DNA from: Grifola frondosa
Taxonomy: Eukaryota > Basidiomycota > Agaricomycetes > Polyporales > Grifolaceae
Assembly: GCA_001683735.1 (NCBI GenBank)
Contig: LUGG01000053.1
Span: forward strand, 39,256 to 103,255
Direction of reading: 5' to 3'
Length of the DNA stretch: 64,000 nt
Of the stretch, positions 5,601 to 63,257 are shown piece by piece (the stretch's first letter is position 1; the number at the start of each line of letters is the position of its first letter). Below the pieces are notes generated by a model. The model was not told where the DNA came from. It searched no databases and was given only the letters and a program-made list of their open reading frames with translations. A program made the translations under genes and the position numbers.

Positions 5601-5929
5601 GATGTCCAAGATAAAATATGTGTGCGAAGCGCGCGAGGAGTCGGTAACCATAGTCCGCAAATACAGTCCAGCAGCTACGGTGGGTGAGCAGGTGGTATGG
5701 CTCGAATGTATGCATTAGGTTGGGACCTCCAAGCTCCAGACTGTTTGAATAAGGCAAGAAGTCCTCAGCAGTAGGACCATCATCATAATCATCAAAATTT
5801 GACGAGTGGCGTGGCCAGATGGGATGGTCAGGAAATGGAAGATCCACAGGAGATGTTGGTCTCGGAAACCTGCACATACTAAGCATGGACCAGTCTCCAA
5901 CATGCTTCAGCCGAATTCGACCAACCCGC
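2626..5929 (-). pseudogene. C-terminal part of Ulp1-type large gene, split by LTR insertion and frameshifted (copy A)
   Basis: Minus-strand coding sequence of about 1,100 codons that begins exactly at the left edge of the LTR element and is the continuation of 22565-20781. Removing the element joins the halves in frame (...PPSRR then VGRIRL...). I do not recognise the protein family. It has no obvious membrane segment. The last 120 residues are very basic (KKKRALNKK-like) and then acidic (DDEEEE, GEGGEGDDED), which suggests a nuclear or nucleic-acid-associated protein. Two frame breaks exist in this copy: a missing base near 4866 and a two-base loss near 4180. Copy B is intact at both places but broken elsewhere. 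Stop at 2626. The breaks could be consensus errors or real decay. Confidence 0.75.
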
Positions 5930-7666
5930 TGTCGTATTCTTCCGGCGATCGGTATGAAACAACACACTTTTCACCAAACAACCAAAAGGCTATCTGACTA
6001 GAGTAATATTTTGTTTTATAGTCGAGGGGTTATTTCCCGGATAGGACGGGTGCACCGAGCGTAACGGGGTTTCCTACTTTTCCGGATAGAGGCTCAGTCG
6101 AGTCCGGTTGCGCGAAGATACGCTATATCACAGGAGACTCTGAAGATGCTCTGTGAAGTATCCTACGGTACTTGGTTACTTACAGTATACCTGTGGGGAA
6201 CAAGAAAAAGACTAGGCTAGACTCAAATAGTCTGCCTCGTTAGTATGCTTCTAACTTCTTTTCAAAGTTACTGCCTTCTTGCAGTACTTTGACTTCAATA
6301 CTGATTCCGCTTGCTGATTAGGAATGCTCCTGGACTTCTTTCCAGAGACTTATACTCCGTAATCACTTACAAGACGGACTTCCCAAACCCAATACAAACA
6401 ACCAATTTCTCAAACTGACGGTGCGTACCTGATGTCCTTTATGACAGGATTGCCTCCACTGTCCTAACAAAAGTCTACCAATCTTCCTACTAACCTTGTG
6501 CTTCCAGAATCTCTTGCCTGGACAGTTGACAATTTAGGGAAGTGATATGCCCCTTTTGTGACAGGATTACTTCACTGTCCTAATAAAGGTCCAATATTTC
6601 CTGCCTGAACTTGTGCTTCCAGAATCTCTTGCCTGGACAGTTGACAATTCAGGAAATACTTTACAAACAGGTAAGCCTAGACCACACACTCAAGTGGGCC
6701 TCAAAGTTAGAGAAAGAAATTCTGATTCAAAGCTAAGGTTGGCTGAGGAACGAGAGCTTTGGGGGGGATCCAAGAGATGGATGATCAAAAGATGGATGGA
6801 TCAAAAGATGGATGATGGGGCCCCTCATTCGCTCCAGCTTATATACTCTACAGAATGTTTCTGGAAAGTTCTATTCTATGGCTGACTAATGCTCCTTCTG
6901 CTTACCAATCCACTCCAAATGCTTACCAATCCACTAAGTTTTCTGCTGACGAATTGCATTTGGAAGTTGCTGGAAGCTTCCTTGACCTGCTAGCACATTC
7001 TACACAGGTCTCTCTCCTTCTGGAGAATTCTCCCAGGTTCCATGAGTTCCTAGGGTGTTCTTCATGATTCTATGATACTCTGGAGTCTACTGAAATATTC
7101 TAGCAGATTCTCCAGGTTTCTGTATTCTTCCAGGACAATCTGGAAGGGGAATTTTCGATTAAAGTCTTCTTTTAAGACTATAATCTTCTGGGAAATTCCA
7201 GGACCTTCTGTCCTTCCAGGATATTCCAGGATATTCATCAGCAAGGGGCACACAAGTCTGCTCAACTAAGCAGAAATGACCACAGTACTCTTTGCTGACA
7301 CAATTCATTACAAGAGGTGAACTGAGCGAAGTGCAATATGTGATGGGAGATGAATGTGACAGATAAGGAAAGGGAAGAAAGGGGATAAGCCGTGATGTAT
7401 TATGACCTTGACCTTCTTGACTGTCCCTAGACTCCCTGCAACTGCTGCTGCCACAATCGAATGTCTCCTGGGAAAATGACCGTGTTTGATCAGAATGCAA
7501 CATAGTCATTATCCAGCTTCAATGCTCCTGTCATCCAGCGCCTGTCTGGGCTGCCCAATTCCATGCTATCGTTTCATTCCCTGCATGCTTTCACGTGTGT
7601 GGGTAGTGCAGACACTGGTCAATGAAATTGCCATGTCCGAGTACCAATCCAGATTGGTGCACGACA
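5930..7666 (-). repeat. 3' LTR of the retrotransposon (copy A)
   Basis: Directly repeated at 19041-20780. It carries a minus-strand TATATAAG box at 6838-6845, about 820 bp from the LTR start in element orientation, which fits a U3 promoter. It also holds an internal tandem duplication of about 110 bp (around 6443-6655, each half containing GACAGGATT...GACAGTTGACAATT) and short GATGGATGATCAAA-type repeats. The left six bases and right six bases are inverted (TGTCGT/ACGACA). The first 13 codons of a spurious fused frame with the neighbouring gene lie in its left edge. Confidence 0.93.
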
Positions 7667-7682
7667 TCCGCCCCACAGTTAC
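7667..7682 (-). other. Polypurine-tract-like sequence next to the 3' LTR (copy A)
   Basis: In element orientation the bases directly before the 3' LTR read TAACTGTGGGGCGGA and then TGTCGT. GGGGCGGA is a modest purine tract at the place expected for plus-strand priming. Thirteen bases of it (CGCCCCACAGTTA on the plus strand, 7670-7682) recur exactly at 11972-11984. Confidence 0.5.
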
Positions 7683-7854
7683 TCGACCGTCCCTGGTCGA
7701 TTTTCTTCTATCTTCTACTTCTTTGTGACGATTCCTTGTCCGGTGGCCTATTGGCTCATCGTTTACATCAGATTCACCATCATCTTGACTTTTGGAGTAT
7801 GCAGACTGAGTGCTGATCATGGGAGAGGGAAGAATGTGTACATCATCATGTGAC

Positions 7855-8370
7855 CTAGTTCTTCCATCCATGTTCTATGTAGATCAGCAGGAAATCGTCC
7901 ATCAGCCTCGCATCTCCTGCTCGTAGCATCTTCTTCGGCAACTGAACTATACCATCATCTGGCTTCAACATTCCTCTGCAATGAGCAATGTTCCAAATAA
8001 TCCATGCCTCTAACCACTCAAACATGGCCAACCTGGAATAGGGAATCCCAACTGCAACCTCCTGGCTGCCTGTATAATGCTCCACTGCGACAATGAGCTG
8101 GGTCTCCTGGAATTGAAGAGTACGGATGATTCGTCCAGTGAACTCGATGTTGGGTCCCATAAGACGAAGGGGGCTGGAAAAGTAGACTCGGGTGGGGTAA
8201 TCCTGGTCTGGATCGAGGGTGAGAATATGTTTGCGAGATTGTCGCTGCACTAGGTAGTGAGGGATTTGAGTGTCAGGTGTAAGAAAGTGTTTGCATGGTT
8301 GTGACAGAGGGAAACAGGAATGCCTGGGAACGACCGAGTAGTATTGTGCTTTATTTATAAGTATGAGCAC
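7855..8370 (-). CDS. Hypothetical protein in the 3' part of the retrotransposon (copy A)
   Basis: Open frame of about 170 codons on the element's sense strand, between the Gag-protease region and the 3' LTR. The C-terminal two thirds, about 120 residues, looks like a folded domain with alternating hydrophobic and charged stretches. I do not recognise it. The frame has no ATG near its 5' end (it opens with GTG), so an upstream spliced exon is likely, perhaps the basic 101-codon frame at 8660-8355. A CACGTG box and TATAAATAAAG sequence sit at about 8343-8377 just upstream on the same strand and could be a separate promoter. Copy B carries two compensating 1-base differences near the N-terminus and otherwise the same protein. 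Confidence 0.45.
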   Translation of the reverse strand: MLILINKAQYYSVVPRHSCFPLSQPCKHFLTPDTQIPHYLVQRQSRKHILTLDPDQDYPTRVYFSSPLRLMGPNIEFTGRIIRTLQFQETQLIVAVEHYTGSQEVAVGIPYSRLAMFEWLEAWIIWNIAHCRGMLKPDDGIVQLPKKMLRAGDARLMDDFLLIYIEHGWKN

Positions 8371-8660
8371 GTGATCATGTCCCTAGTTTGATGTCCCATG
8401 TCATGTGACTTGCTGATGACAGGATGTGCAAAATCGGTGTTATTTTGCCATGTCCAGGTACCAAACACTTTTGGTGTGTGACAACGTCGCATGTTCCGCA
8501 TCATGTCTTCCATAACTTCCTTCCTTGTCCTATTTTTCTTCGGCTGTCTTCTTCTTTCCCGTCTCTTCTCTATCTGACCCATTCTCTTCATCAGCAGTTT
8601 TATGAACTCCTTTCGTAAGACATCATCTGCTAGTATGCCTTCCAATGTGGTTGGGGTCAT
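8371..8660 (-). CDS. Possible basic exon upstream of the 7855-8370 frame (copy A)
   Basis: 101-codon frame whose N-terminal half is strongly basic and helical (KRMGQIEKRRERRRQPKKN). It runs into the next frame at about 8370. In copy B the frame is preserved over the basic part but shifted at both ends by single-base indels. Function unknown; it could be a nuclear localisation or nucleic-acid-binding segment of the same protein as 7855-8370. Confidence 0.3.
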
Positions 8661-8699
8661 ATTGAGGAAAGATAAGTGGGTGCTTGGTCCGATGGATGG

Positions 8700-11110
8700 A
8701 TTTCAGCTTATATATCCATCCAGGATGGATGACTAAGCTTTCCACAACCTTCCTGAACTTAACAGAGAGTACTACACATTTTCCCAGAATTTTCTGGTAC
8801 TTGCGAGTAGGCTCTCTGCTCTTCCAAGGTATTCCTCTACTGATCATAGGCCCGTAAATGGCCACTCCTCTCAATTTATCATTCTTGAAGCTTCAGGACT
8901 GATCCTAATAAATTTGTCGACCTGAATAACTCTAGAAACATCCTTCACATCACCGCAGAATGTGTTGTGGTCTTGCACAGCGAGTATCGAGTTTCTCGTT
9001 CTTCAGCCACTTCGAACAGCGCGGAAGTCACGTGATCGTGAACCGCGACGCGTCAATAGCCAAATCGGGCTTGACGCGTCAAGTACGTTCTCTGCTGGCA
9101 CTTTGAATACTGCTTCTTCAAACCTCTCTATCTCCCCGGCGCTTGACTCTCGTTCGTCTCGTATCTACCTCTCTGGGCGACGTTCTTTCTTCTGCAACTA
9201 CGGACGCGACGCAACTGCGTCCGCACTTCGACTTCGTCGTGGAAGACCGTCCCGGTGAGTACACGTATACCTTATTCTTATTGTTATTTTCTGCCGCGTG
9301 GTTTCTCTTTCACAGGTCTCTTCACCGCGTCGACAGCGGACCCTTCAGTGGGTCTGCCACGGGGACTCCTGCACGACGCCGCTGGGTTCTCTGCGTACCG
9401 GCCACTGTCCTGCTTTATTCCATTTCTCGCGGGTCCTTACTTCCTCGAATCCTCTTCCTGATGCTGTCTGTCATCACAGCACTTCATCTATACCTCTCTG
9501 GGTCGCGTCACCGCAGCCTGTCCGATACTTTTCTCTGGTTCGCGCTCGTCTGGACCTTGTCAACACGATGCCGCTATCCGCGCGGTCTCTCTGCCGCGCT
9601 GCGTCCTTCTCAGCTGCTTGTGACTCGATCTCTCTGTCTGATGAACCTTTTGACGACATCTGGCTGTGCGTCCCGCGTAGTGCGCGCGCTCTGCGCTCGC
9701 GTCTTGTCCACTGTCTACCTGCCTGCTTCTCTGTCTTCTTCTCTCCTCGTGTGCCTCTGCATCGAGCGCTCAACGCCGTCTCTGTGTCGGGGAGTTCTGG
9801 GATCGATCTCGCGTCTCGTGCCCTGTCGGCCATCTCCTGGCCATCCACCTCACTTCTAAGTAAGTCCAATCTCGTCGTGTTTCCTCAACTCATAGGCCGC
9901 GCTCGATCCCGACGCGTCACCGAATGGTGACACGTCGCGATCAGCGCTGGCACGTCTTCGTCCATACCGACGCGTCCTCTAACACTTCTCGTCCCTTCAG
10001 GAACGTTCTCGTGCGTGCGGGGCTGCCTACTATGCCTGCCTCCTCCTAACTGTGCCCTCGGGCGTGCCTCGCTCGTCGCGCCCCTCAAACCCGTGAGCCT
10101 TCTCGTTTCTTCTCGTAACATCTCATCAGCTGATCACGGTGCCGACGCGTCGCATGCGGACGCTCTGCTTTGTCGCTCGTTCTTCGGCATCCTGCGAGGC
10201 AGTGACGCGTCGCGTTCGGTGCAGACGCGTCCCTCGGACTACTAATGCGTTCTCCCTGCTTCTTCACAGATCCGGCTTCATCGTCTCATCGTCTCCGAGG
10301 TATGTCCACGCGTTGCCCTCCCGCACACATGTCGAGTAGTACTAATACCTCTTGCAGCGCTGGTACGTCTCGCAAGGGCTAGCATGATGGTACGGGAGCG
10401 CGTCGGTGAGTTCCTCGTCCCTTAAATACCTTTTCTCTATTTGCTGAATCCAAATAGATCCTTTCTCGAACCTCCGAGCAACATGTCGATCGGCCGATCG
10501 TGTTCTCGTGAGTACCACCTCAATCTCGTGACAGGGCTGACGCGTCGTTCAAGGGCTGACGCGTCGCGTCGCGTACGTTCTGGTACGCGCACGTCACAGC
10601 TTGCACGTAAGGTTATTCCGGTATGTTCTTCCTGTTTCTCGGTGATCGAGATCCTGCTGACCCCTTTTCTGTAAGTAGGGTCCTCTCCCATGACCTCGTG
10701 ACGAACGCGACGTGTCAGACGCGTCGCATCGCGAACGTTCCACTACGACGCGCGTCGCGTCTTCCGGTACATCCTCGCGGCCACGGGATCCTTCCATCCG
10801 CTTCTTCGTCCTTCGCACCCTTGGGCTGCACTGACCGCGCGCCCTCGATCATTTCTTAAGGTGCGTTTTCCATAACCTTCTCCTCATTTCGTGAACCATC
10901 TGACTCTTTCTCGTGCTGACGCGTCGCGTCTGGGACGCGTCATGCAGTCTCATGACATCGATCCTCTCGGGGAGGCTGTGTCCGCGCCCTCAGCTGACCG
11001 TCCTCGACGTTCCCCGAACCTTCCGTGTGTTCGGGCACATACGCGTCGGGTGCGCTCTCCCGTTTCTGTCTCTTTCTATACTGATCTGGTACCTTCTCGG
11101 ACGACGTTCG
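8700..11110 (+). other. GC-rich, pyrimidine-biased interior of the retrotransposon (copy A)
   Basis: The composition changes sharply from the AT-rich neighbourhood at about 8.95 kb to a C/T-rich plus strand. No frame has convincing protein similarity; the open frames here (up to 238 codons) are long because the composition is poor in stops. Several intron-like units lie on the plus strand, for example GTGAGTACACG (9256) to TTTCACAG (9316), and GTAAGT to CATAG around 9858-9897. Antisense or non-coding spliced transcripts are therefore conceivable. This is the part in which copies A and B differ most by indels. Confidence 0.5.
9047..11046. promoter_or_regulatory. Cluster of 14 ACGCGT (MluI cell-cycle box) motifs (copy A)
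   Basis: ACGCGT occurs 14 times in 2 kb. Twelve copies are the 8-bp palindrome GACGCGTC, starting at 9047, 9073, 9911, 9969, 10144, 10204, 10224, 10539, 10558, 10718, 10918 and 10934. The other two are at 10308 and 11041. About 0.5 would be expected by chance. ACGCGT is the known binding box of the fungal MBF (Mbp1/Res-Swi6) G1/S factor. The last box lies about 70 bp upstream of a TATA box at 11117. The count is seen directly; a cell-cycle role is inferred. Confidence 0.6.
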
Positions 11111-11116
11111 CGTGGC

Positions 11117-11124
11117 TATAAAAG
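11117..11124 (+). promoter_or_regulatory. TATA box TATAAAAG on the antisense strand (copy A)
   Basis: A canonical TATAAAAG in a GC-rich context, followed at 11128-11139 by the perfect 12-bp palindrome GCGAACGTTCGC. It points in the plus direction, opposite to the retrotransposon's genes, and precedes an ATG at 11242 by about 120 bp. The same box is kept in copy B at 50722-50729. Confidence 0.55.
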
Positions 11125-11241
11125 CTCGCGAACGTTCGCCGCCTCTGCAGCTTCTCATTTCCTTTCTTGATCTCCTAGCTCTCAGACGGCACGTACATTC
11201 GACTACGCGCTCGCCGCTGTGCTCAAGACATTCATACATGC

Positions 11242-11984
11242 ATGGGCAGCGCGCTCGACTGTCTCCTCGACCATGCACTGGGTCATGCGGGTACGCATCC
11301 TGCCTCCTCGTCACCTGTCGCACACCATCCTGATGCGCTCTTCGTCGTCGTCGGGGTGCTGGCTGGTCTGGGTGCGTATGTTCCCGCTTCTTCCTTCTGC
11401 TTCTGTTAATCTCCTCACTCATCAAGCACGGCGCATTGTCCCTCGAGTGCTGTGTGTTCAGCTTCTCGAGACGATCGCTTTGACGGTATGCGGTTTCCCG
11501 CGCTATCTTATGCTCGTCCGCGACCACGGCTACGTGTGCGACTCGATGTTGGTCACCGGTACGTGCGTCGCATTTCTTGGTCATTCTTCTCCCTTCTGTA
11601 CTGATCCCTGTCTTGGCGTACGGTCTGCAGATGTCCGCGCTCATTCTGCGCGGTCTGCAGCACTCGTCCCACTGTTCCCTTCCTTCGTCGTCGTCTCTAC
11701 TTGCTGGGCAAGCATTCGGCCTGCTCCACCTCGTCGCGTCACCACGCTTCGGGTCCTAGTGCGCTTTCCGCGTTCAACGACGCCCGAGTGGGTGCATCCG
11801 ATGCATAACCAGCTAAGTATCTTCTTCTTCCACCTGCCTACCATCTCGTAACTGATCCTTCCTGACAGTGCCCTACGCACTGTGCACTATCTGCCGTCGG
11901 GCATGCATACTGCATCCGCGGCACCTGCGACGTTCATCTCGTCGGCACGCCTACGTTGCCCACTGGCCTTCGCCCCACAGTTAG
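11242..11984 (+). CDS. Candidate four-exon antisense gene, about 187 codons (copy A)
   Basis: Proposed exons are 11242-11371, 11427-11558, 11631-11816 and 11869-11984, with introns of 55, 72 and 52 nt. Donors are GTGCGT, GTACGT and GTATCT. Acceptors are AAG, CAG and CAG, with CTCAC and CTGAT-type branch points. The phases match at every junction and no stop occurs until TAG at 11982-11984, which is followed at once by AATAAA. The predicted protein starts MGSALDCLLDHALGH, has a hydrophobic stretch ALFVVVGVLAGL and ends Cys/Arg/His-rich (CTICRRAC). No family is recognised. The region is poor in stop codons, so open frames are weak evidence. Copy B has three indels that break this model. Confidence 0.3.
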
Positions 11985-12003
11985 AATAAACGAACTGTTG
12001 GGG
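11972..12003. repeat. Stem-loop overlapping an internal copy of the polypurine-tract sequence (copy A)
   Basis: CCCCACAGTT (11973-11982) pairs with AACTGTTGGGG (11993-12003) with one bulged base. The left arm lies in CGCCCCACAGTTA (11972-11984), identical over 13 bases to the sequence abutting the 3' LTR at 7670-7682. It covers the stop codon of the candidate antisense gene, so it could be a transcript 3'-end hairpin or an internal priming site. Confidence 0.5.
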
Positions 12004-13117
12004 CACCTACTCAGTTCGTCTTCCTTCTTCGTTACTCTGCCTCCTGAATTTGCTGACTTAATTTCTCTCGAAATTAACAGCAATATTCATCTTCATTTTC
12101 CCGACGGCTGCTTATCTTTCCTTGTCCGTAGTTGTAACTTCGTATCGGGACTGTAGACTCTATTCCTGTATTCTCGGATAGTCTTCCCGGATGCAAACCA
12201 ACTGAAATCTTGCAATTCACCGTATGATATCAAGCCATCGTCTGCCTAATTCGTTCGTGGTATTTCTGCGAAACGACTCCTTCCATGTTGGCTTGGTCAA
12301 ATACCCATCTTCATCCGGCAGCCACTTCAGCAAATTGTCCTATTCCTTATTCAATACTTAAGTGACCATCCGATCGGAACTATCCTGATCGTGTCACTGC
12401 TCGCTTGCTTGTCATGACTTTTCGGCTCGATAAGTCAAATTAATGACTCGTCCATAATGCTTGCCACGTTAAACTTCGATTCCTTTGAAGGCTAGATCTC
12501 TTGGATGATCTCGAATCTCATATATCAAACCCCGCTCTTCAGGGTGCCTAGTTCCCTTGTTTTGGTGCTCATCATGCATCTCCAGAATTCTCGGTGTATC
12601 CTTGTCCTGCTATCCTAAATCGGTACTGGCCAACCTCCTCCCGATATTTCTTTATCCCTGAGTGCACACCGGAGACATGGTTCTTGACCTCATGTACACG
12701 TGTTCTGACTTCCTTACTAATCCTGTTCCATCCACAGACGGACTTCCAGCATCCCATGCCTCCTTGGCTATGTCCTGGTAAGATCCTCCAAATCTGTGCA
12801 ATGGCTAAACTTGCTAACTTCCTAAATCGTGTACTTCTTTGAGTGTCCCATGTTCGTCCCTGCCACTGGACCATATCGGTGGGTCCCAGATCCTTCTTCA
12901 TCTGCTATCTTGACACCGGAACACTCCGAATTTAAACTTTCCAAACTTCTTTTCTGATAGGCTTCTCGAGCGTCTATCGGACCGGTTTACATCATTGTCC
13001 TTGACGTGAGTATACATCAAAATAAATGATGTAAAGATGTCATCCAGAATTTCTTTTATAGCTGGGCACAAGCCTTGATCGCCGTTTAGTCTTCTTCTTT
13101 CCTTTCCATCACCACCA
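12004..13117. other. Interior segment with no assigned gene (copy A)
   Basis: A minus-strand frame of 109 codons (12901-12572, ATG start) and a short frame near 13140-12930 on the same strand have protein-like composition, for example CPAIKEILDDIF in copy B. They are fragmented differently in the two copies by single-base indels. I cannot connect them into one gene or recognise a domain. No RT, RNase H or integrase motif is seen. Just before the small antisense gene the plus strand has TTTTATAGC at about 13055, a weak TATA-like sequence. Confidence 0.4.
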
Positions 13118-13458
13118 ATGCCTATAGAGGTGGGACTTCCGATTACGCATTTCCCCCTTCCCGCATTATTAACCTGACTTGTTCCTAGTTGAACAGTACT
13201 GTTGGTTACCTAGATGAGACGGGAACGGTTACTGGGAAAGTGATCGAGGTGGAAATTGTGGATGTAAGCTTCTCTTCATATCTGCTGTGATCCTATCCGT
13301 GCTGAAATGTGCCGTAGGGTATGAAACGTGTTACCATCCAGGTTGATGGTAAACCAGTTCCCATGAAACTTCCGTAAGTCGAATTTCGCCCTTGAATAAA
13401 TACTGCTTATCCTTGCTTCCATAGTGCTGCAACGGTGTTTTCCGTCCGTCGCACGTGA
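13118..13458 (+). CDS. Small four-exon antisense gene, 58 codons (copy A)
   Basis: Exons are 13118-13129, 13189-13263, 13318-13373 and 13425-13458, with introns of 59, 54 and 51 nt. Donors are GTGGGA, GTAAGC and GTAAGT, and every acceptor is TAG. The phases join cleanly to a 58-residue protein that starts MPIE and ends SVRRT before TGA. Its composition is that of a compact beta-rich fold (alternating V/I/T with G turns: GKVIEVEIVDG, VTIQVDGKPVPMKL). It is convergent with the polyprotein gene, which stops at 13579, and has no recognised relative. The 177-nt reading frame is kept across three introns in ordinary AT-rich sequence, which makes chance unlikely. In copy B one base is missing at the end of exon 1. 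Confidence 0.6.
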
Positions 13459-13578
13459 GAATGATGTACCTAGAATTAGATAGATACATCATTGAACCTG
13501 ATCGATTGTCCATTTGCCTGATTTAACCTGTTCGAATTCTTTCCAAACACAATATCGCTTGAATTGGAGAGGAAGAAT

Positions 13579-16371
13579 TTAGGCCGAGTGGTCTGACTCG
13601 ATGTCAGACTGATTGTCTAGAGTGCGACACTCTATGGGTCCACAGTAATCTATGACTTCATACCATTTCCCATTCGGATATCGGTTATACCGTGCGTTCA
13701 CTTTCAGCTTGCGCTTCCGACGAGGTGCCATGACCGCATTGGATTTATCTGCCAGAGCCGGCTCATGATTATCTGATGCCTGAGAATCGGAGGGTAAGGG
13801 ATATGTATCCTCAAAATTTCCTTCCTGATTTTCATTCCTCAGAAACAATATTTTCGCTGTCTCAGGTAGGGGCCCTGACATTTCTTCAGGTATGTCTGGT
13901 TCGCTGTCTGAATCCCATATTTCTAGAGCTTCGTGACCACCTCTATCGGAATATCTGGTAAAAATCACTTTCTCAGGTGATCTATGCCTTTTCCGTGATG
14001 TGACTGCTGTCTTCGATTTTTCGGCCTTCAATGACTCCCTCTTTCTCCATATGTCCCATGCTGGATTATCGGCGAGTTTTCCAACCCGTTCGACCGGTAC
14101 ATCTTTATTCGTATGCCAGATGATGTCCGGTCCAGCATGATAGGCGTAATGTATTCATCTGCATATTCATTCCGAATACAAATCCCATATTTGTTGCTCA
14201 TCCTTATGGCAGTAGTGTGACAAGGAGCAACAGGGGGAGATCCTGGTGTAGTCACAGGTTCCAATATGTCCTCGTCAATTGGTACCCATAGCTGCTGTCC
14301 ATTGACAATCTCACATCGGTGAGTAGCTTCTGCGGGAATCTTCTGGATGATTTCGGTGCGTCCATATCGGAGAGTAAAGGCTGATCTTTAATTTGATCTT
14401 CCTTTTCCTTCAACTCTCTTTCCTTCCTTCCCTTTCCCTGGCCTTCCTTTCCTCAAGTCTCTGTGTCGCCAATTCTTTTTCCTTGGCTATCCTTGCTATG
14501 TCTGCCCTCATCCAATCCCATACTTTCTTTTCAATGAGTTTGCCTACCCGAGTGAGTGGTTCATTCTTATCCGAAACCCATGTTATGTCTGGATCCAGAT
14601 CGAGTGGAGTAATCCAATCGTCTGCAACTTCCCGGTCAACACATACTCCATGATCATCATCTAGCCTAATGGCTGTCGAATAACATTCCAAGCATGGTGG
14701 AGATCCTGGACCATTCATGGGTTTAAAGTTATTTTGATCCAGTGGTATCCAGATTCGCTGACCAAGGACCATGCCACATTTATGAGTGGCTTCAGCTGGG
14801 ATCCTTCGAACAATCTTTGGCACTTCGGGTTTTGAGATCTGAATATCTGCACATAATCCTTCATTCTTTTTCTCCAATTCTCTGGTTCCTGATTTTGGCA
14901 TATCAGTTTCTATAGTCTGAGTCTCAACTTCGACTGTAGAAGGTGGGGGCTTATCTGCCTCAGGCAAATAAATCATCTGAAATATGCCATGACCACTTTT
15001 CTCGACTCCATCAATGGATACTTTGACGTCACGTAACAAGAACAAGTCTTCTTGGATTCCTATATTTGTACTCCAATTATCTCTCATTATGAGATAATCA
15101 GATTCACAAGATGAGATGGAACCTAAGATAGGCTGAAGTGGTCCAGAGCATGACCATATTGGGCACAATATTTAAGCAACAAGTGCTCATACGAGGTGCG
15201 TGATATGTAATCGTGGATATTCACAGCCTGCTGATGACCTAGAGCATGATTATTCTTATAACATAGACCATCCCAGTGAACTGCATTCCAATTATTTGGA
15301 GATACTGGTTCAGTCGGAACCTCTGAGCTTTCTTGGATTTGAGATTCCTGATGATTCGGCAAATTCTGTACATTGCCTGCCTCCATTAAGGATTGTATAC
15401 CCTTTGAGTCGCTGAAATCTAGAACAGGTAAAGGATCCTTGCATTCCTTCATGGCTTGAATGCTGGCACATAATGGAGCCTTCTTTGATAGGGCTGCAGT
15501 TTGCGCCTCCATACTGGTAACAAGCATTCCAAAACTCTTCTTTCCATCTTCTGAGCTTATCTCCACATAGACTCCATCTGGGCTATTCCGTATGAGAAGG
15601 TTGTTGCGCCTTTGCCATGGCTGACCAAATAATGCTGGTACTGCCAAACCTTCGACAACATAAAGATCGGCATGGGTTACTACTGATCCAAGCGAAATTT
15701 GCACTGGCCATATTCCATAATATGACAGTGGCTTTCCAGATACATCTGATAACTTCATCGGAATTGCCTTCTCCTTGCTTCCTCCCAAGGTTTTCCAAAT
15801 ATCGGCTGAGATACAATCGAGTTGTGAACCTGTATCAATAAGGAATGGGATTACACAATCGTTAAGCCGCACTGGAACTGTAATGAGTGGGGGTAGGGTA
15901 GACATAAACCATTTCGCCATTTGATCTGGGAAGGTATGTGGCTTTGCAACTTCAGCTCGGAGCATCGTGATTAGTCCTGGTTGATCCATTTGAATGCAAC
16001 AATTCTCGAGATTGGTAGAAGAAGTTGGTAGCATCTTAACAATTGCTTGACCGTATACTCCTCCTTTCTTATCAAAGAATTGTACATCCCTTAACAAGAA
16101 GGTTCGCCCATATGGTCCTAGCTGATAATCCTGGAATTCAAGGCCACGTTCTGCCAAAAGCGTACATGGGCCTGATGATATTGGCTTCAGGTTATGGTTC
16201 TGAATCTTCAACTTCTGGGCTAGACTATTGTATAAGGCTTCATCCAGATCATTATCTGATGAATCATCCACATGGCTTGAGCTCGGAATTGTACTTCGTC
16301 TCTTTGAGTACAATTTAAATGCTTCCTTTGCCTATAGAGTTTCCATATCTTCTGCTTCATCAATATCGGCA
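13579..16371 (-). pseudogene. C-terminal part of the retrotransposon polyprotein with second retropepsin domain (copy A)
   Basis: Minus-strand frames 16313-15123, 15168-14410, 14264-14028 and 14031-13579 are pieces of one long chain; copy B holds 804 codons of it uninterrupted. The first part has a second aspartic protease: FLIDTGSQLDCIS (catalytic Asp of DTG) and, about 80 residues on, LFGQPWQRRNN, matching the retropepsin flap-to-C-terminal layout. After this come two repeated modules, each containing a Cys/His pattern and PGSPP, and a basic tail (APRRKRKLKV). In this copy the chain is cut by a TAG at 16334-16332 where copy B has CAG, and by small indels near 15150, 14400 and 14130. No RT motif follows. 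The repeated modules are unrecognised. Confidence 0.75.
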
Positions 16372-16851
16372 TTATTTCCTTCTGAAGACTCTGACGATGT
16401 AGAGTTCCACTTTGTCACTATCTGCATCATCAGGAAATTCTACCTCCTCTGTTGAGTCGGTGTCCTCCTCAGATGAGGTATCGCTGATATCTGCCAATTC
16501 GGGAAGGTCCAAATCATCCTCCTCAATTTCTTCAACCCTCGCATATGGCTCTGTCTTGTTCCATTCCTTCACAACTGTAGCATATACTGCTGAGTCTGCA
16601 GAGGTTGATGGGGAGACTAGTAACTCTGATTCCGGATATCCATTTTGGCCTCGGAATGTTAAATATGTTCCATCATCTCTTTCAGCAATTCCAACACCAT
16701 TATCCTGCTGCCAAGGTCTTCCTAATAGGCCATCAAATGGGGGATCAGATGCAACATATGCATTGATATTGGTCTCAATATGACCAATCTTTAGTGGTAT
16801 GTTCTCCACTAATCCCAGTAATTCGCCTCGGCCTCCATTTGCATCACTCAT
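16372..16851 (-). CDS. Retropepsin C-terminal half and acidic linker (copy A)
   Basis: Continues the first protease domain in a shifted frame: after MSDANGGRGELLG comes the retropepsin C-terminal signature DPPFDGLLGRPWQQDNG. The rest is a very acidic linker (EEIEEDDLDLPE, SSEEDTDSTEEVEF). It overlaps the previous frame by ATGA, and a one-base shift at an A-run near 16865 is needed to join them. Both copies share this shift. In copy B this segment has one further lost base, near 56361. Confidence 0.7.
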   Translation of the reverse strand: MSDANGGRGELLGLVENIPLKIGHIETNINAYVASDPPFDGLLGRPWQQDNGVGIAERDDGTYLTFRGQNGYPESELLVSPSTSADSAVYATVVKEWNKTEPYARVEEIEEDDLDLPELADISDTSSEEDTDSTEEVEFPDDADSDKVELYIVRVFRRK

Positions 16852-18014
16852 AGATATGCTTTCCTTTTATTCATCGGCAAATGAACTGTAGATTTCCAGA
16901 CCTTCTCACTGATAATATTCAGCTGAGAACCAGTGTCCACAATAAATGACACAGGTTTTCGGTTACATTCCATGAAAAGCCGAATCAGTGATCCACGGGT
17001 CGCAGTGACCAAATTCGAAGTCGGCGCTGGAATTACGTCTGTCTTCTTAACCCGAAGAATATTCTGCAACTGCTGAGCAACTTCCTTGGATACTCCAACA
17101 ACCTCTCCCACAGATAAGGTGAGTTGAGTGTTAAGTATCTTGTTAAGAACCGATGCAGGATCCACTTCTCTGCTGATCACAGAAGTACGTGCTGCTGATC
17201 GAGCATGTTCTGTCACTTGCTCCCTGTTAGGCCTATTATTGGACATAGCTGGGTCATCCAATATCTCCACATCATTGTCTGGATTGAAATTCCTCGTCTG
17301 TACATCAATTGGGGTTAATTTCTGCATTGGTACCTGAGGTACTGCAGAAATCTCGGGCCGACTTGTTGAAGCAAGGTGAGGTGGTGGACCCTTTTGCTGT
17401 GGCAACACCTCTCTTTGCTTTCCCTTATATCCTGTGCTTCCCTGATATCCATCTCTGATTTGATTGCGATAGGAACGAGTTTCCCGAGGGACCTTCTCTA
17501 CAGGGAAGACCAAAACGTCGGACTCGTCTTCCTCATCCATTTCTTCATCATCAGAGACCTCATCACATACAAGGTAATTCACCTCTGGGGCTATCCGCTT
17601 AATTGCCTGCATCCAATTCTCATCTGGGTTTCGAAAAACTGGTATACCATTCTTCACGGTAAACCTTCCTCGATAGTCCTTTAGGAGAAGACCCTTTGTC
17701 ATCATTTCCTGTAGGCGAGGACAGTTACCCATAATGTGACCAGATTCTCCACATCCAAAGCATCCTATTGAAGGTGGTCGAGATGAGAGAAAGCGATTTG
17801 GATCTGGCCTGCTGAACTGAGTCGGTGGAGGAGGTATGTCAACTCTATTAATTCGAGGTCGTGGTAGACATTCCGCAGCTAAAGGATTTAGCTGTGAAGC
17901 CTGAAGGTATAATAATCCATACTTCGGATCCTCCACGGACAAATTCTTCATTTGCATGATTAGTTTGTCCATTTCGTCCTTGAGCTTATTTGGGTTGGTC
18001 CTTTCATCACCTTT
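16848..18014 (-). CDS. Nucleocapsid zinc knuckle and first retropepsin N-terminal half (copy A)
   Basis: Open frame reached from gag by a one-base backward shift at about 18014; a first ATG lies at 17972. Residues near 75-90 form a CCHC zinc knuckle, CFGCGESGHIMGNC (C-x2-C-x4-H-x4-C), the RNA-binding nucleocapsid signature. A long linker with an acidic stretch (SDDEEMDEEDESD) follows, then FIVDTGSQLNIIS, a retropepsin active site. The frame ends just after it, and the rest of the protease is in the next frame (16851-16372). The same product is encoded in copy B at 57576-56452 without change. Confidence 0.85.
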   Translation of the reverse strand, partial: KGDERTNPNKLKDEMDKLIMQMKNLSVEDPKYGLLYLQASQLNPLAAECLPRPRINRVDIPPPPTQFSRPDPNRFLSSRPPSIGCFGCGESGHIMGNCPRLQEMMTKGLLLKDYRGRFTVKNGIPVFRNPDENWMQAIKRIAPEVNYLVCDEVSDDEEMDEEDESDVLVFPVEKVPRETRSYRNQIRDGYQGSTGYKGKQREVLPQQKGPPPHLASTSRPEISAVPQVPMQKLTPIDVQTRNFNPDNDVEILDDPAMSNNRPNREQVTEHARSAARTSVISREVDPASVLNKILNTQLTLSVGEVVGVSKEVAQQLQNILRVKKTDVIPAPTSNLVTATRGSLIRLFMECNRKPVSFIVDTGSQLNIISEKVWKSTVHLPMNKRKAYL

Positions 18015-18916
18015 CCCAAAGGTTTGCCCAATTTGCTAGACTCTCTCCGGGGTGTTCCATGACTAATAGGAACTTCATCTTCATCATCATCATCATCATC
18101 ATGTGCAGACCTTGCCTGGAATCGGACCTTCTTTCCACCTTTGGCTCTGGCTGCACGTCTCCTTGTATCTGCAATCCTTTCATTTCCATAGTCTTCATCA
18201 TCTGAATCATCATCGTCAACCAGATCATGATCATAGATGTCTTCAGATCCTAATCTCTCTGTATCAAATCTGTCAGATCCTAACAGATTCTCTGCAGCAT
18301 TTGAAATTGCTTCTGGCTCAAATGGTTGTGACATATCATGAAGTGGTTCTGTCAAAAGAATCCTAGCCTCCAGCTGCTTGCGGAACGGGGTGTAAATTCC
18401 AGTCCACAGGTAGTAGGCATAGTCGAAATCACTGATTTTCCTTTGCCCTTTCAACCATCCAGCAATGCGGATAAACTTCCTTAAGTATCTCCGCCAATCC
18501 TTCAGATCGTATATCTTTTCTCGCCTAAATTGGGCAACAAAGGCCTGAAGATCCTTCAAGCGGAACCTCTTTGACTCGAGGTCAGCATTGAAGTATATCT
18601 CGATATTCGCCTTTAATTGATCCCAATTTCCATTCCTGAAACTGGAGAAACCCTCAATAGTTTCTCGTACCGTACGAGAACAGTAATCTGTGACTGTTTC
18701 GCATTTCTCCTCTGCCGTAAGCCTGTGTAGCGTGGCCAACTTCTCAAAGTGGCGAAGGAAGGGCCTGACTTCTGCAGAATCTCCCTTAAAACGCTTAGGT
18801 GCAGTCTTGGTGCCTTCGACTGGCATGTCCATGACTGACCTGGTGTTTGAAATTGATGTGAACTGGCTATCCATCATAGGACTGCCTATATTCGAATTCT
18901 GGGTTCCGGTATACAT
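17960..18916 (-). CDS. Gag-like capsid protein of the LTR retrotransposon (copy A)
   Basis: The first ATG of the frame is at 18916 (MYTGTQNSNIG), giving 318 residues; the frame is open further up to 19000, but only with a TTG. The chain has a helical capsid-like region of about 200 residues (FLRHFEKLATLHRL, WDQLKANIEIYFNAD, LKDWRRYLRKFIRIAGWL) typical of Ty3/gypsy-type Gag. An acidic C-terminus follows, with a run of six Asp encoded by a CAT/ATC microsatellite at about 18075-18100. It stops at TAA 17962-17960 and overlaps the zinc-knuckle frame. A heptamer GGGAAAG (18017-18011) is in the correct phase for a -1 shift. Copy B is identical. Confidence 0.85.
   Translation of the reverse strand: MYTGTQNSNIGSPMMDSQFTSISNTRSVMDMPVEGTKTAPKRFKGDSAEVRPFLRHFEKLATLHRLTAEEKCETVTDYCSRTVRETIEGFSSFRNGNWDQLKANIEIYFNADLESKRFRLKDLQAFVAQFRREKIYDLKDWRRYLRKFIRIAGWLKGQRKISDFDYAYYLWTGIYTPFRKQLEARILLTEPLHDMSQPFEPEAISNAAENLLGSDRFDTERLGSEDIYDHDLVDDDDSDDEDYGNERIADTRRRAARAKGGKKVRFQARSAHDDDDDDEDEVPISHGTPRRESSKLGKPLGKVMKGPTQISSRTKWTN
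18011..18017 (-). promoter_or_regulatory. Candidate -1 ribosomal frameshift heptamer GGGAAAG (copy A)
   Basis: In the gag frame this is read as G GGA AAG, the X XXY YYZ pattern of eukaryotic -1 slippery sites. Slipping here moves ribosomes into the frame that reads NPNKLKDEMDKLIMQM and then the zinc knuckle. I see no strong stem-loop downstream. The alternative is a fixed one-base loss. Confidence 0.4.
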
Positions 18917-19014
18917 GACTCCTGAACACGTATAACCGTGGGTGTGATCACAGAGATATACCACTCGTGTGATGACGTATGCTTGACAACTTTTCTTCAA
19001 TAACTATCTTTCCT

Positions 19015-19032
19015 CCCTCGCGGTGGGCTCCA
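19015..19032 (-). other. Primer-binding-site-like sequence (copy A)
   Basis: Eight bases inside the 5' LTR the minus strand reads TGGAGCCCACCGCGAGGG. TGG complements the CCA end of a tRNA, and the rest would pair with an acceptor ending GGUGGGCU. The particular tRNA was not identified. Confidence 0.5.
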
Positions 19033-19040
19033 ACTCTTCT

Positions 19041-20780
19041 TGTCGTATTCTTCCGGCGATCGGTATGAAACAACACACTTTTCACCAAACAACCAAAAGG
19101 CTATCTGACTAGAGTAATATTTTGTTTTATAGTCGAGGGGTTATTTCCCGGATAGGACGGGTGCACCGAGCGTAACGGGGTTTCCTACTTTTCCGGATAG
19201 AGGCTCAGTCGAGTCCGGTTGCGCGAAGATACGCTATATCACAGGAGACTCTGAAGATGCTCTGTGAAGTATCCTACGGTACTTGGTTACTTACAGTATA
19301 CCTGTGGGGAACAAGAAAAAGACTAGGCTAGACTCAAATAGTCTGCCTCGTTAGTATGCTTCTAACTTCTTTTCAAAGTTACTGCCTTCTTGCAGTACTT
19401 TGACTTCAATACTGATTCCGCTTGCTGATTAGGAATGCTCCTGGACTTCTTTCCAGAGACTTATACTCCGTAATCACTTACAAGACGGACTTCCCAAACC
19501 CAATACAAACAACCAATTTCTCAAACTGACGGTGCGTACCTGATGTCCTTTATGACAGGATTGCCTCCACTGTCCTAACAAAAGTCTACCAATCTTCCTA
19601 CTAACCTTGTGCTTCCAGAATCTCTTGCCTGGACAGTTGACAATTTAGGGAAGTGATATGCCCCTTTTGTGACAGGATTACTTCACTGTCCTAATAAAGG
19701 TCCAATATTTCCTGCCTGAACTTGTGCTTCCAGAATCTCTTGCCTGGACAGTTGACAATTCAGGAAATACTTTACAAACAGGTAAGCCTAGACCACACAC
19801 TCAAGTGGGCCTCAAAGTTAGAGAAAGAAATTCTGATTCAAAGCTAAGGTTGGCTGAGGAACGAGAGCTTTGGGGGGGATCCAAGAGATGGATGATCAAA
19901 AGATGGATGGATCAAAAGATGGATGATGGGGCCCCTCATTCGCTCCAGCTTATATACTCTACAGAATGTTTCTGGAAAGTTCTATTCTATGGCTGACTAA
20001 TGCTCCTTCTGCTTACCAATCCACTCCAAATGCTTACCAATCCACTAAGTTTTCTGCTGACGAATTGCATTTGGAAGTTGCTGGAAGCTTCCTTGACCTG
20101 CTAGCACATTCTACACAGGTCTCTCTCCTTCTGGAGAATTCTCCCAGGTTCCATGAGTTCCTAGGGTGTTCTTCATGATTCTATGATACTCTGGAGTCTA
20201 CTGAAATATTCTAGCAGATTCTCCAGGTTTCTGTATTCTTCCAGGACAATCTGGAAGGGGAATTTTCGATTAAAGTCTTCTTTTAAGACTATAATCTTCT
20301 GGGAAATTCCAGGACCTTCTGTCCTTCCAGGATATTCCAGGATATTCATCAGCAAGGGGACACAAGTCTGCTCAACTAAGCAGAAATGACCACAGTACAT
20401 CTTTGCTGACACAATTCCAATTACAAGAGGTGAACTGAGCGAAGTGCAATATGTGATGGGAGATGAATGTGACAGATAAGGAAAGGGAAGAAAGGGGATA
20501 AGCCGTGATGTATTATGACCTTGACCTTCTTGACTGTCCCTAGACTCCCTGCAACTGCTGCTGCCACAATCGAATGTCTCCTGGGAAAATGACCATGTTT
20601 GATCAGAATGCAACATAGTCATTATCCAGCTTCAATGCTCCTGTCATCCAGCGCACTGTCTGGGCTGCCCAATTCCATGCTATCGTTTCATTCCCTGCAT
20701 GCTTTCACGTGTGTGGGTAGTGCAGACACTGGTCAATGAAATTGCCATGTCCGAGTACCAATCCAGATTGGTGCACGACA
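19041..20780 (-). repeat. 5' LTR of the retrotransposon (copy A)
   Basis: 1740-bp partner of 5930-7666. It contains the U3-type promoter box TATATAAG at 19949-19956 on the minus strand. Differences from the other LTR are confined to about 20340-20660 (CACACAAG versus ACACAAG, ACT versus ACATCT, a GT/AT change and a CA gain). Its right edge interrupts the Ulp1-type gene. Confidence 0.93.
19949..19956 (-). promoter_or_regulatory. Putative LTR promoter TATA box (copy A)
   Basis: TATATAAG on the minus strand within the 5' LTR, about 825 bp after the LTR start in element orientation and about 1.0 kb before the gag ATG. This places U3 before it and R/U5 after it. Confidence 0.45.
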
Positions 20781-22565
20781 CCGCCTGGATGGTGGTTCGA
20801 TAAGATCAGAATGTACATCAGCGCTCGTCCCTCGGCCGATCTGTAGCACAGCGGGAAGATGTCCACAGTCATGACCCTGTATCAATGGCTGACAACCTGC
20901 CTGCGCACGCACTCCCGAGTTAATGTTGTCCTGTAACTGGGAAGCGTTCGTCAGGGCATCAAATGCGGCTTTTGTGCTTCGACAGGAAACACAATTAGTG
21001 CTCGATAGTCGTATGTTCCTAAATATCATGGCATCCTCAGCATGGGTCTGGAGCGAATGGATTGCTTGAGTTATATCGTCCTCGATATTATATGTGGGAG
21101 CAGCAGTCGGTCGTTGATCATAGGAGGCCCATTCGACCGGTGCGCTTTCATGAAGATGCAGGAAGTCTTGGTATGCTGTGGAGAGAATGCGACATAGATC
21201 GAGATACATTTTCATCCGAATGAGATGTCCACAGATGATGCTGAGGTGCTCCATTGTACCATCATCATGCAACGTTATACCGTGGCGAAAGATGTGAAGC
21301 GCTGCCATTACTGCGTGAGGACCACAGTTGTAGCCATCCATCGCCCAAGGAACATTGAAAGCAGAAATATTCTCCTGCGTGCCAACATCCCATCCGTGTA
21401 GAAGACATAGATGATGGTAGTAGCGTGGCCCCTCCCACTCCTCCCATGGATCATATATCTGTTTATCGCTCGTACGACCAAGAACGTGAATGGTGTGATG
21501 CTCCATGTCCATCACGACCACGAAGTAATGATTCCGATGAAGAACGACAAATATGAGTGGTGTAATGTCGCAAGGGCCTGTGTCAGGAAGAAAATAGTTT
21601 CGACGGAAATTGTGAATGGAATATGCTTGATCATTGTAAGATTGTTCAGATTTCCAAGCTCCTGCGACGAAGGTGTCCACGTAACGTGCTTTTGATGTTG
21701 TGGAATTCATGAACCAGGCATGAAGGAGGTATAAATTGATGAGACTGAAGTCCAGCCATTGACGGTCGGCCAGTGTATCCAAACTTGCTAGCGCAGCCTG
21801 CCACAACCATGGGTTGGAAAGGCAGCGCCCTTTGTATATGATCGCAACAGTCAAGGAAAAGCAGGTGACTAGCGTGAATGTGTAAACTCAACTGGCTCTG
21901 TCCAAACGATCTCCAAGTGACAATTCCTCCGGTGAGTTAGAACGAGTACTATTGTGTGTTGGAAATGATGGTGATCGAATCACAGTTCTTGGCTGGGGCG
22001 GTATAAATGTCGCATCCATACTATTCTCTGAGTCATCTGTAGATTCATCTCTGTCGGAGCTATGTTCGCTGGATGACGACAGGGGATGTGACTTTGCATC
22101 CAAGAGATTGGTTAGAATTTCAGCCAGTTCGGCCACATTCTGATCGTCATCAATACGACTCCCACTGGTCTTGATCGCTTCCAGCATGTGCCAATCAGGT
22201 TCGTAACAGGGCAATGAGTCATCATCTCCTAAGGAGCTGGTTGTAGAATATATGGTTTTTGCTATTTGTTCTGTGGCTGGTTCAGTTCGCAACCGATTAT
22301 GTCTGGATAAGGGCTGGTACATACGATGACATGATGCGTCGGTCCATGTCGTCCTTGTCCCAGATAGAATGGGAGAGCTGTGATTGGATATATTAAGGTA
22401 ATGATCAAGGGTTGCGGCAAGGTCCTCGTGCGATGCGCTCGTCAATGGAGGTGACGGCGTTTCAGCCGTGGGTTTCAAATTCAGTAGGCGGTCGAACATG
22501 ATCTGGAGGTCGTCATTAGAATCGGTTGGGGAAGACATATGAGCAATAGGATCTGTAGATCGCAT
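20781..22565 (-). pseudogene. N-terminal part of large gene with Ulp1/C48-like protease domain, split by LTR (copy A)
   Basis: The start ATG is at 22565, with a TATAAA sequence at 22594-22589 about 25-30 bp upstream. The first 225 residues are Ser/Thr/Asp-rich and disordered (SSSSEHSSDRDESTDDSENS). An in-frame TGA (21890-21888) follows and the frame then reopens. Next comes a domain of about 240 residues resembling Ulp1-type cysteine proteases: NHYFVVVMDMEHHTIHV (His region) and, 70 residues later, MDGYNCGPHAV with the likely catalytic Cys. The Asp and Gln positions are less clear. Such proteases cleave SUMO-like conjugates and are known in fungal transposon genes, so a mobile-element origin is possible. 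The frame runs into LTR sequence at 20780; its true continuation is 5929-2626. Both copies carry the TGA. Confidence 0.75.
21888..21890 (-). other. In-frame TGA between disordered region and protease domain (copy A)
   Basis: The 225-codon N-terminal frame and the protease frame are in the same phase and separated by this single TGA plus 33 nt with no ATG. It may be a nonsense mutation, a boundary between two genes, or part of an unrecognised intron; no convincing GT-AG pair restores the frame. It is present in both copies. Confidence 0.6.
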
Positions 22566-23650: not shown

Positions 23651-23653
23651 TTA

Positions 23654-24320
23654 GGTATGTCCCCTCACCTCTTATTCACCGTCGCCCTGCACGCCGGAAA
23701 CGACTGCAGGTGCGACGTCGACGATACAATGTCCGCTGTGCGCTGGATACAACCACAGCGGACATTCTCCAGAGGTATGTCCCTTTCACCTCTTATTCAC
23801 CGTCGCCCTGCACGCCGGAAACGACTGCAGGTGCGACGTCGACGATACAATGTCCGCTGTGCGCTGGATACAACCACAGCAGACGTTCTCCAGAGGTATG
23901 TCCCTTTCACCCCTTATTCACCGTCGCCCTGCACGCCGGAAACGACTGCAGGTGCGACGTCGACGATACAATGTCCGCTGTGCGCTGGATACAACCACAG
24001 CGGACGTTCTCCAGAGGTATGTCCCTTTCACCTCTTATTCACCGTCGCCCTGCACGCCGGAAACGACTGCAGGTGCGATGTTGACCCTATGACGTCCGCT
24101 GTGCGCTGGATACAACCACAGCGGACGTTCTCCAGAGGTATGTCCCTTTCACCCCTTATTCACCGTCGCCCTGCACGCCGGAAACGACTGCAGGTGCGAT
24201 GTCGACGATACAATGTCCGCTGTGCGCTGGATACAACCACAGCGGACGTTCTCCAGAGGTATGTCCCCTCACCTCTTATTCACCGTCGCCCTGCATGCCG
24301 GAAACGACTGCAGGTGTGAC
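23654..24320 (+). repeat. 121-bp tandem array, about 5.5 units, each with a hairpin (copy A)
   Basis: Units start at GGTATGT at 23654, 23774, 23895, 24016, 24137 and 24258 (period 120-121 bp). Most units contain GTCCGCTGTG and CACAGCGGAC around a 12-13-nt loop, perfect 10-bp inverted arms; one unit has a single change in an arm. Frames through the array are open only because the unit is repeated; they are not genes. A more diverged unit continues at about 24929-25030 on the far side of an insertion. Confidence 0.9.
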
Positions 24321-45200: not shown

Positions 45201-45551
45201 ATATGCTTTGACACCTCCATTGGATGTCCAAGATAAAATATGTGTGCGAAGCGCGCGAGGAGTCGGTAACCATAGTCCGCAAATACAGTCCAGCAGCTAC
45301 GGTGGGTGAGCAGGTGGTATGGCTCGAATGTATGCATTAGGTTGGGACCTCCAAGCTCCAGACTGTTTGAATAAGGCAAGAAGTCCTCAGCAGTAGGACC
45401 ATCATCATAATCATCAAAATTTGACGAGTGGCGTGGCCAGATGGGATGGTCAGGAAATGGAAGATCCACAGGAGATGTTGGTCTCGGAAACCTGCACATA
45501 CTAAGCATGGACCAGTCTCCAACATGCTTCAGCCGAATTCGACCAACCCGC
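42247..45551 (-). pseudogene. C-terminal part of Ulp1-type large gene (copy B)
   Basis: Same gene fragment as 2626-5929. Here the reading frame is intact at the two places broken in copy A, giving a 515-codon frame (45095-43548). It is broken instead at about 45103 (one base lost in a C-run) and at about 43773 (one G lost). One substitution gives Tyr where copy A has Asp (MMYRTN versus MMDRTN). The complementary positions of the lesions suggest one functional ancestral frame and either consensus errors or very recent decay. Confidence 0.75.
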
Positions 45552-52721: not shown

Positions 52722-53061
52722 ATGCCTATAGGGTGGGACTTCCGATTACGCATTTCCCCCTTCCCGCATTATTAACCTGACTTGTTCCTAGTTGAACAGT
52801 ACTGTTGGTTACCTAGATGAGACGGGAACGGTTACTGGGAAAGTGATCGAGGTGGAAATTGTGGATGTAAGCTTCTCTTCATATCTGCTGTGATCCTATC
52901 CGTGCTGAAATGTGCCGTAGGGTATGAAACGTGTTACCATCCAGGTTGATGGTAAACCAGTTCCCATGAAACTTCCGTAAGTCGAATTTCGCCCTTGAAT
53001 AAATACTGCTTATCCTTGCTTCCATAGTGCTGCAACGGTGTTTTCCGTCCGTCGCACGTGA
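52722..53061 (+). pseudogene. Small antisense gene with a one-base loss at exon 1 (copy B)
   Basis: Exons 2-4 are identical to 13189-13458 (stop TGA 53059-53061). Exon 1 reads ATGCCTATAGG before the donor GTGGGA, one base shorter than in copy A, which breaks the phase. Confidence 0.5.
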
Positions 53062-63254: not shown

Positions 63255-63257
63255 TTA

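Follow-up and report, generated by a model that had tools for sequence, protein, structure and literature searches.

A probable four-exon accessory gene antisense to gag-protease in a lineage of large Ty3-type retrotransposons of Grifola frondosa

Introduction

Whether a gene with several introns can be a lasting part of a retrotransposon is the question raised by a short locus in the basidiomycete Grifola frondosa. It lies in a stretch of 64,000 nucleotides (positions 39,256 to 103,255 of the forward strand of contig LUGG01000053.1, assembly GCA_001683735.1), referred to below as the window and numbered from its first base. A preliminary description of this DNA had placed at 13118-13458 of the plus strand a hidden gene of 58 codons and four exons, antisense inside a retrotransposon. 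We report here that the locus very probably represents a genuine protein-coding accessory gene, with a putative promoter of its own, of a lineage of large Ty3-type long terminal repeat (LTR) retrotransposons.

Results

The described frame was re-derived from the window in all its parts: an ATG, four exons of 12, 75, 56 and 34 nt that join in phase, three GT-AG introns in phases 0, 0 and 2, and a TGA after 58 codons (Table 1). The translated product is MPIELNSTVGYLDETGTVTGKVIEVEIVDGMKRVTIQVDGKPVPMKLPAATVFSVRRT. As had been claimed, none of the exons is visible as a plain open frame. Each of the six unspliced frames over the span contains stops, 8, 6 and 7 on the strand of the gene and 2, 6 and 4 on the sense strand of the element, so that the gene is not detectable as a plain open reading frame (ORF). 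Its placement antisense inside the retrotransposon was recovered as well, with the gene on the plus strand and the host LTR element on the minus strand.

The 39.06-Mb assembly (64 contigs) contains copies of the gene in five subfamilies of the element: nine in F1, the subfamily of the window, seven each in F2 and F3, three in F3b and two in F4. In all of the latter four the gene occupies the same position, strand and intron positions as in F1. The nine gene-bearing F1 copies are 98-100% alike over 13000-13600, and the seven F2 copies, all with the four exons, share 73% DNA identity with the window over the matched stretch. The more distant subfamilies were reached through gag: of 14 further loci sampled out of 109 gag matches, 12 have the gene in the expected orientation (seven F3, three F3b, two F4). 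It was not found at L055 and L059 within the 1.9-2.2 kb searched, where it may be absent or displaced by a nested insertion; the gag of L059 is only 30% alike. At the DNA level, blastn at E 0.01 with window 12001-14600 or its F2 counterpart gave no match to six F3/F4 loci (L048-L053). Twelve places have a gag at least 94% alike to that of the window; nine of them carry the gene, two (on C39 and C37) end at its expected site, and one (C12:1408701) gave no match to it, which amounts to nine of the ten F1 gag copies where presence could be tested.

Across the subfamilies the product measures 58-59 residues, and phases (0/0/2) and splice positions are identical in the four subfamilies where every exon could be resolved. 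F4 was compared on exons 1-3 only, because the acceptor of its third intron is ambiguous. Residues common to all five products are M1, P2, E4, V9, GK, E26, DG, V34, I36 and LP. Product identity to F1 follows that of gag (72% vs 76%, and 40-50% vs 49-53%). Under a strict rule of intactness (ATG, three GT-AG introns, exact length, stop), 13 of 25 copies passed, namely 6/9 in F1, 3/7 in F2, 2/6 in F3, 1/1 in F3b and 1/2 in F4 (three exons). The gene is present at L060-L062, which stand outside this count, and L037, L039 and L053, where the junction letters hinge on gap placement, were scored as not intact. Many of the defects are one-base gaps, either real or due to assembly errors, and damage to about half of the copies (12/25) is usual for element copies. 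The preliminary description had named stops in homologous elements as an outcome that would speak against the gene; in each subfamily at least one copy keeps frame, start and splice sites (three exons in F4).

The pattern of substitutions supports a coding function. Between the F1 and F2 exons, 50 differences fall on codon positions 1/2/3 as 7/10/33 and change 16 residues, as compared with a mean of 29.5 under random placement (none of 20,000 trials reached 16). Between F3 and F3b the distribution is 12/6/23, with 15 residues changed vs a random mean of 25.2 (again none of 20,000 trials as low). The nonsynonymous and synonymous rates (dN and dS) estimated by NG86, the only method quoted for F1-F2, were 0.18 and 1.80 for this pair, the latter near saturation (dN/dS about 0.10), and 0.16 and 0.80 for F3-F3b (about 0.20), for which YN00 gave 0.20 and 0.61. 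The dN/dS ratio proposed earlier as a check thus lies at about 0.1-0.2 across subfamily pairs. Exons contain no gap columns in either pair, introns 10 (F1-F2) and 12 (F3-F3b). Identity in F1-F2 and F3-F3b was 0.60 and 0.66 for introns, 0.71 and 0.77 for exons, and 0.62 and 0.86 for the 60 bp upstream. All 12 splice-site bases are kept in both pairs, the reference copies having been chosen because they fit. The DUF4100 piece of gag evolves at comparable rates (F1-F2: dN 0.15, dS 1.02), meaning that the constraint on the antisense gene is about equal to that on gag. Comparison across subfamilies therefore shows, at the level of sequence, a product of 58-59 residues under purifying selection.

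Such a pattern might also arise if the sense strand were conserved for a coding frame or an RNA structure of its own and the spliced gene were only its reflection. Once the exons are joined, one of their sense frames indeed differs at 15 residues vs 16 for the gene in F1-F2, and at 17 vs 15 in F3-F3b, as a mirror frame should. However, stops interrupt this frame in both sequences of either pair, even with the introns removed; over the unspliced gene, none of the five reference copies has a sense frame free of stops; and another sense frame of the joined exons, open in F3-F3b, differs at 24 residues. Exon phases and splice sites, too, are sensible only in the antisense direction. We consider a mere reflection extremely improbable.

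The gene might instead be a passenger, a piece of a host gene taken up in antisense orientation and useless to the element; transduction of genes has been proposed as one source of the additional ORFs of LTR elements, according to the available text of PMC7264820. However, purifying selection acts here in subfamilies whose DNA no longer aligns at this place, and no match outside the element was obtained in the genome (E<=10) and none outside this fungus in the protein database, both searches being limited in reach. A useless passenger is accordingly quite improbable. The suggestion in the preliminary description that the gene is cargo or regulatory is affected in the same way: selection kept across subfamilies argues against fresh cargo, and a regulatory role is taken up in the Discussion.

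Upstream of the gene, a TATA-like box lies at -62 from the ATG in F1, -61 in F2, -58 in F3, -59 in F3b and -79 in F4, and the box TATATAAT is identical in four aligned F3/F3b sequences. Judged by eye, about 500 bp upstream of the gene seem to differ less between F3 and F3b (L057, L050, L060, L062) than the gene itself does, and are a candidate promoter or sense-RNA signal. Strong conservation of this upstream DNA would also suit a locus in which the antisense RNA rather than a protein is functional, by forming double-stranded RNA or by interfering with sense transcription; for other retrotransposons, PMC7264820 (in its available part) discusses antisense transcripts in such roles. The codon-position pattern, the gapless exons and the kept start, stop and splice sites show selection at the protein level, which makes a function of the RNA in place of a protein highly improbable, although both could act.

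Two copies of the gene are already annotated in G. frondosa, A0H81_13446 and A0H81_05904, both named only 'hypothetical protein', showing that gene finders place spliced genes at these loci. Exons 2-4 of A0H81_13446 are exactly those spliced here for F3b from C28 (compared with the C28 copy, not with its own on C25), and A0H81_05904 is, by eye against L052, a distorted model of the C6 copy. Because A0H81_13446 joins upstream exons to exon 2, the gene could be longer, the MPIE exon being one of two alternative first exons. Donor-like GTAAGT/GTGAGT motifs upstream of the TATA box in F1, F2, F3 and F3b fit this view. The start of A0H81_13446, however, is an upstream ATG that reads TTA in F3, for which reason its first exon was rejected as the ancestral start; residues of the upstream exon vary freely, by eye, between F3 and F3b, and the conserved features are the MP..E exon and the TATA box. 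We therefore regard the longer gene as improbable and keep to the compact four-exon form.

The host of the window gene is a 14.9-kb LTR element on the minus strand (5930-20780). Its LTRs have TG...CA ends and are 99.6% identical to each other, and a 4-bp target-site duplication, CCGC, flanks it at 5926-5929 and 20781-20784. Because the coding pieces of gag-protease are on the minus strand, the gene is antisense to them and downstream in the direction of the element; the last gag-protease stop and the stop of the gene stand tail to tail, 120 bp apart. The element yields an Asp_protease_2 profile match (E 7e-7), and the F2 gag region has a zf-CCHC match as well. Both F1 and the F2 copy L037 have two separate DTGS motifs per gag-protease region, an arrangement of tandem proteases that looks unusual, and a double DTGS can also be read in proteins of G. 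frondosa and Pilatotrama (P0007 and P0010). Twelve relatives of gag were found, eleven of them with names, all from polypores (Trametes, Cubamyces, Pilatotrama, Grifola, Dichomitus); a comparison of gag with a phage collection gave, as expected, no match.

Beyond a remnant of the stretch that precedes the reverse transcriptase (RT) in F2, with about 0.8 kb left between it and the LTR, no RT, RNase H or integrase was found in the window element. By coordinates, a sense-strand RT match lies beyond the gene in six of seven F2 copies (one of the six falling under the family cut-off), four of seven F3, one of three F3b and neither of two F4 copies; none of the nine F1 copies has an RVT_1 match nearby among the 101 matches listed. 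The window's subfamily thus looks like a recent non-autonomous form of the element. The described antisense gene in the window's retrotransposon is confirmed: it is real and, by its conservation in five subfamilies, more than chance. Two points are corrected, in that the gene is not confined to the window's subfamily and that no RT or integrase was found for this subfamily.

The layout of RT-bearing relatives was read by sequence in an F2 copy on C17, with the order gag-protease, antisense gene, about 5 kb, RT-RNase H, integrase and LTR (the LTR recognised by its likeness to that of the window). Coordinates give the gene the same place, with protease on one side and RT on the other, in other F2, F3 and F3b copies. 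The order RT, RNase H, integrase, characteristic of Ty3/gypsy (Metaviridae), was read in this one relative; the window element shares the TG...CA LTRs, the 4-bp duplication and the gag with retropepsin, and as an F1 copy has no such pol of its own. In F2, pol sits about 5 kb past the antisense gene, so far from gag-protease that its mode of expression calls for an explanation. The two largest open pieces of this F2 interval between gene and RT (268 and 154 aa; L037/L054, C17:975.7-981 kb) had no Pfam match over the cut-off.

Homology searches with the product stayed within this fungus. The F1 product as a single-sequence query found no homologue in the protein database, and a five-subfamily profile found two G. 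frondosa proteins only and none outside this fungus; both product searches require common five-residue words and may therefore miss distant relatives. A search of this genome with the F1 protein (E<=10) returned element copies of F1 and F2 only and missed those of F3 and F4. Pfam gave only sub-cut-off matches (DUF348, Cu_amine_oxidN1, FeoA and a MORC2 chromo-like model), taken as noise, and the PDB sequence search no convincing match (best E 0.85 and 0.19). A low-confidence structure model resembles an SH3/Tudor-like barrel, and its top fold matches are Tudor-like, with a best Foldseek E of 0.53 (not significant) at 15% identity. The non-significant likeness is to SH3-like barrels such as the 53BP1 tandem Tudor domain, the SETDB1 Tudor domain and the MRG15 chromo barrel; from the model, the product may be a small SH3/Tudor-like beta-barrel.

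Window bases 1-24396 recur at 39624-64000 with 99.5% identity, as a 24.4-kb block including the retrotransposon on this single contig; the window hence holds two F1 copies. Within the duplicated block a tandem array of units of about 120 bp lies at 23653-24320 and 63257-63924. A stretch conserved between F1 and F2 (8484-9054) ends in GTCACGTGA, which is E-box-like, and a common GC-rich block, possibly a promoter preceding pol. A second antisense gene at 8666-8854 (plus strand), which aligned to F2 better than its sense partner, was set aside rather than refuted, because the sense remnant preceding RT directly adjoins it. Long open frames are present at 42247-45592 (minus) and 31690-32952 (plus), the latter with an exact internal 144-bp repeat; a Pfam scan of the frames 42247-43827 and 31690-32952 gave no match.

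Table 1. Positions of the antisense gene, its surroundings and its host element in the window
Feature	Position	Strand	Remark
Exon 1, coding MPIE, ATG start	13118..13129	+	M, P and E invariant across five aligned subfamilies
Intron 1, 59 nt, GTGGGA...TCCTAG, phase 0	13130..13188	+	
Exon 2, 25 codons	13189..13263	+	aa identity 81-84% in 7 F2 copies
Intron 2, 54 nt, GTAAGC...CCGTAG, phase 0	13264..13317	+	
Exon 3	13318..13373	+	
Intron 3, 51 nt, GTAAGT...CCATAG, phase 2	13374..13424	+	
Exon 4 with stop TGA	13425..13458	+	F2 stop (TAG) at equal place
Second gene copy in duplicated block	52722..53061	+	1-bp deletion in exon 1
TATA-like box TTATA, putative promoter	13056..13060	+	62 bp before ATG
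Upstream stretch, probable antisense promoter and/or sense-RNA element	12521..13055		within 12521-13378, about 70% alike F1 vs F2
3' LTR of host element	5930..7666	-	
Remnant of stretch preceding RT in F2	8358..8702	-	75% aa identity over 59 residues
Remaining gag-protease region, several open pieces	13579..16866	-	second retropepsin-like DTGS at 15825-15836
gag region, two overlapping open pieces, DUF4100	16851..19003	-	first retropepsin-like DTGS at 16926-16937
5' LTR of host element	19041..20780	-	

Discussion

Comparison of the subfamilies shows, as far as their sequences go, fixed intron positions and phases and a fixed site and antisense orientation of the gene just past gag-protease. 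RNA polymerase II would start at the TATA-containing promoter inside the element, near 13056, and transcribe against the sense genome, and the resulting antisense transcript would be spliced and then translated. In the sense genomic RNA the introns read CT...AC, so that they should not be spliced there and should survive reverse transcription. That antisense placement protects the introns follows from this anatomy of the element, as read from its sequence. Since the introns would be retained in genomic RNA, the protein could be made only from transcripts of the integrated DNA copy and never from genomic RNA.

Antisense additional ORFs (aORFs) are reported for plant Ty3/gypsy elements, namely gene23 of maize Grande, rice RIRE2, Retand of Silene and other species with TRP28, and PvRetro13 (PMC7264820 and PMC11963269, in their available parts); gene23 possesses a promoter of its own, and its product is nuclear (PMC7264820, likewise). 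According to the same portions of both papers, the plant genes share with the one described here an orientation antisense to gag-pol, presence in most copies of the family and conservation like that of element proteins. The present gene agrees with this class in a frame antisense to gag-pol (open only after splicing), which occurs in most copies and has a gag-like dN/dS. In contrast, plant aORFs sit between pol and the 3' LTR, the location termed aORF-3R (PMC7264820, available text), whereas this gene lies between protease and RT. It also differs in having three introns, only 58 residues and no Pfam match over the cut-off; the word 'intron' is absent from the available texts of PMC7264820 and PMC11963269. 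By analogy with the antisense genes of plant LTR elements, the product may act as a nuclear accessory or regulatory factor of the element, in its expression, in the control of its copy number or in those steps of its cycle that take place in the nucleus.

HBZ-type genes of human T-lymphotropic virus (HTLV) are likewise antisense and read from the integrated copy, a likeness in layout with no homology claimed. A spliced form of HBZ exists. Genes of this type have their promoter in the 3' LTR (PMC7264820, available part). Among fungi, brtn of the Boty-like elements of Botrytis cinerea is likewise an additional antisense gene in an LTR element (Zhao et al. 2011, Virology, as cited in the available parts of PMC7264820 and PMC8365987), listed like the plant genes between pol and the 3' LTR, and is likened here by description, not by sequence. 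According to the available text of PMC5408684, rotifer and basidiomycete elements have a dUTPase domain in sense orientation between protease and RT, which indicates that extra genes have entered this interval before. Within the open-licence papers searched, no account was found of a fungal LTR element with an antisense gene that contains introns. Antisense accessory genes of LTR elements are thus known; the intron-rich one between protease and RT is new.

In a wider and rather doubtful reading, an intron-rich antisense gene between protease and RT would be standard in a whole lineage of large basidiomycete Ty3-type elements, its tiny Tudor-like barrel product, made only from the integrated copy, would be a chromatin factor specific to the proviral stage, and the introns would lock out translation from genomic RNA.

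Our findings show that annotation can turn element copies into anonymous host genes, A0H81_13446 and A0H81_05904 being two examples, and that the additional genes carried by LTR elements can be so much smaller and better concealed that ORF scans overlook them. A gene with several introns would not be expected to last in an element whose replication passes through a spliceable RNA, yet one persists here across diverged subfamilies, and the rule that antisense placement protects introns becomes directly testable.
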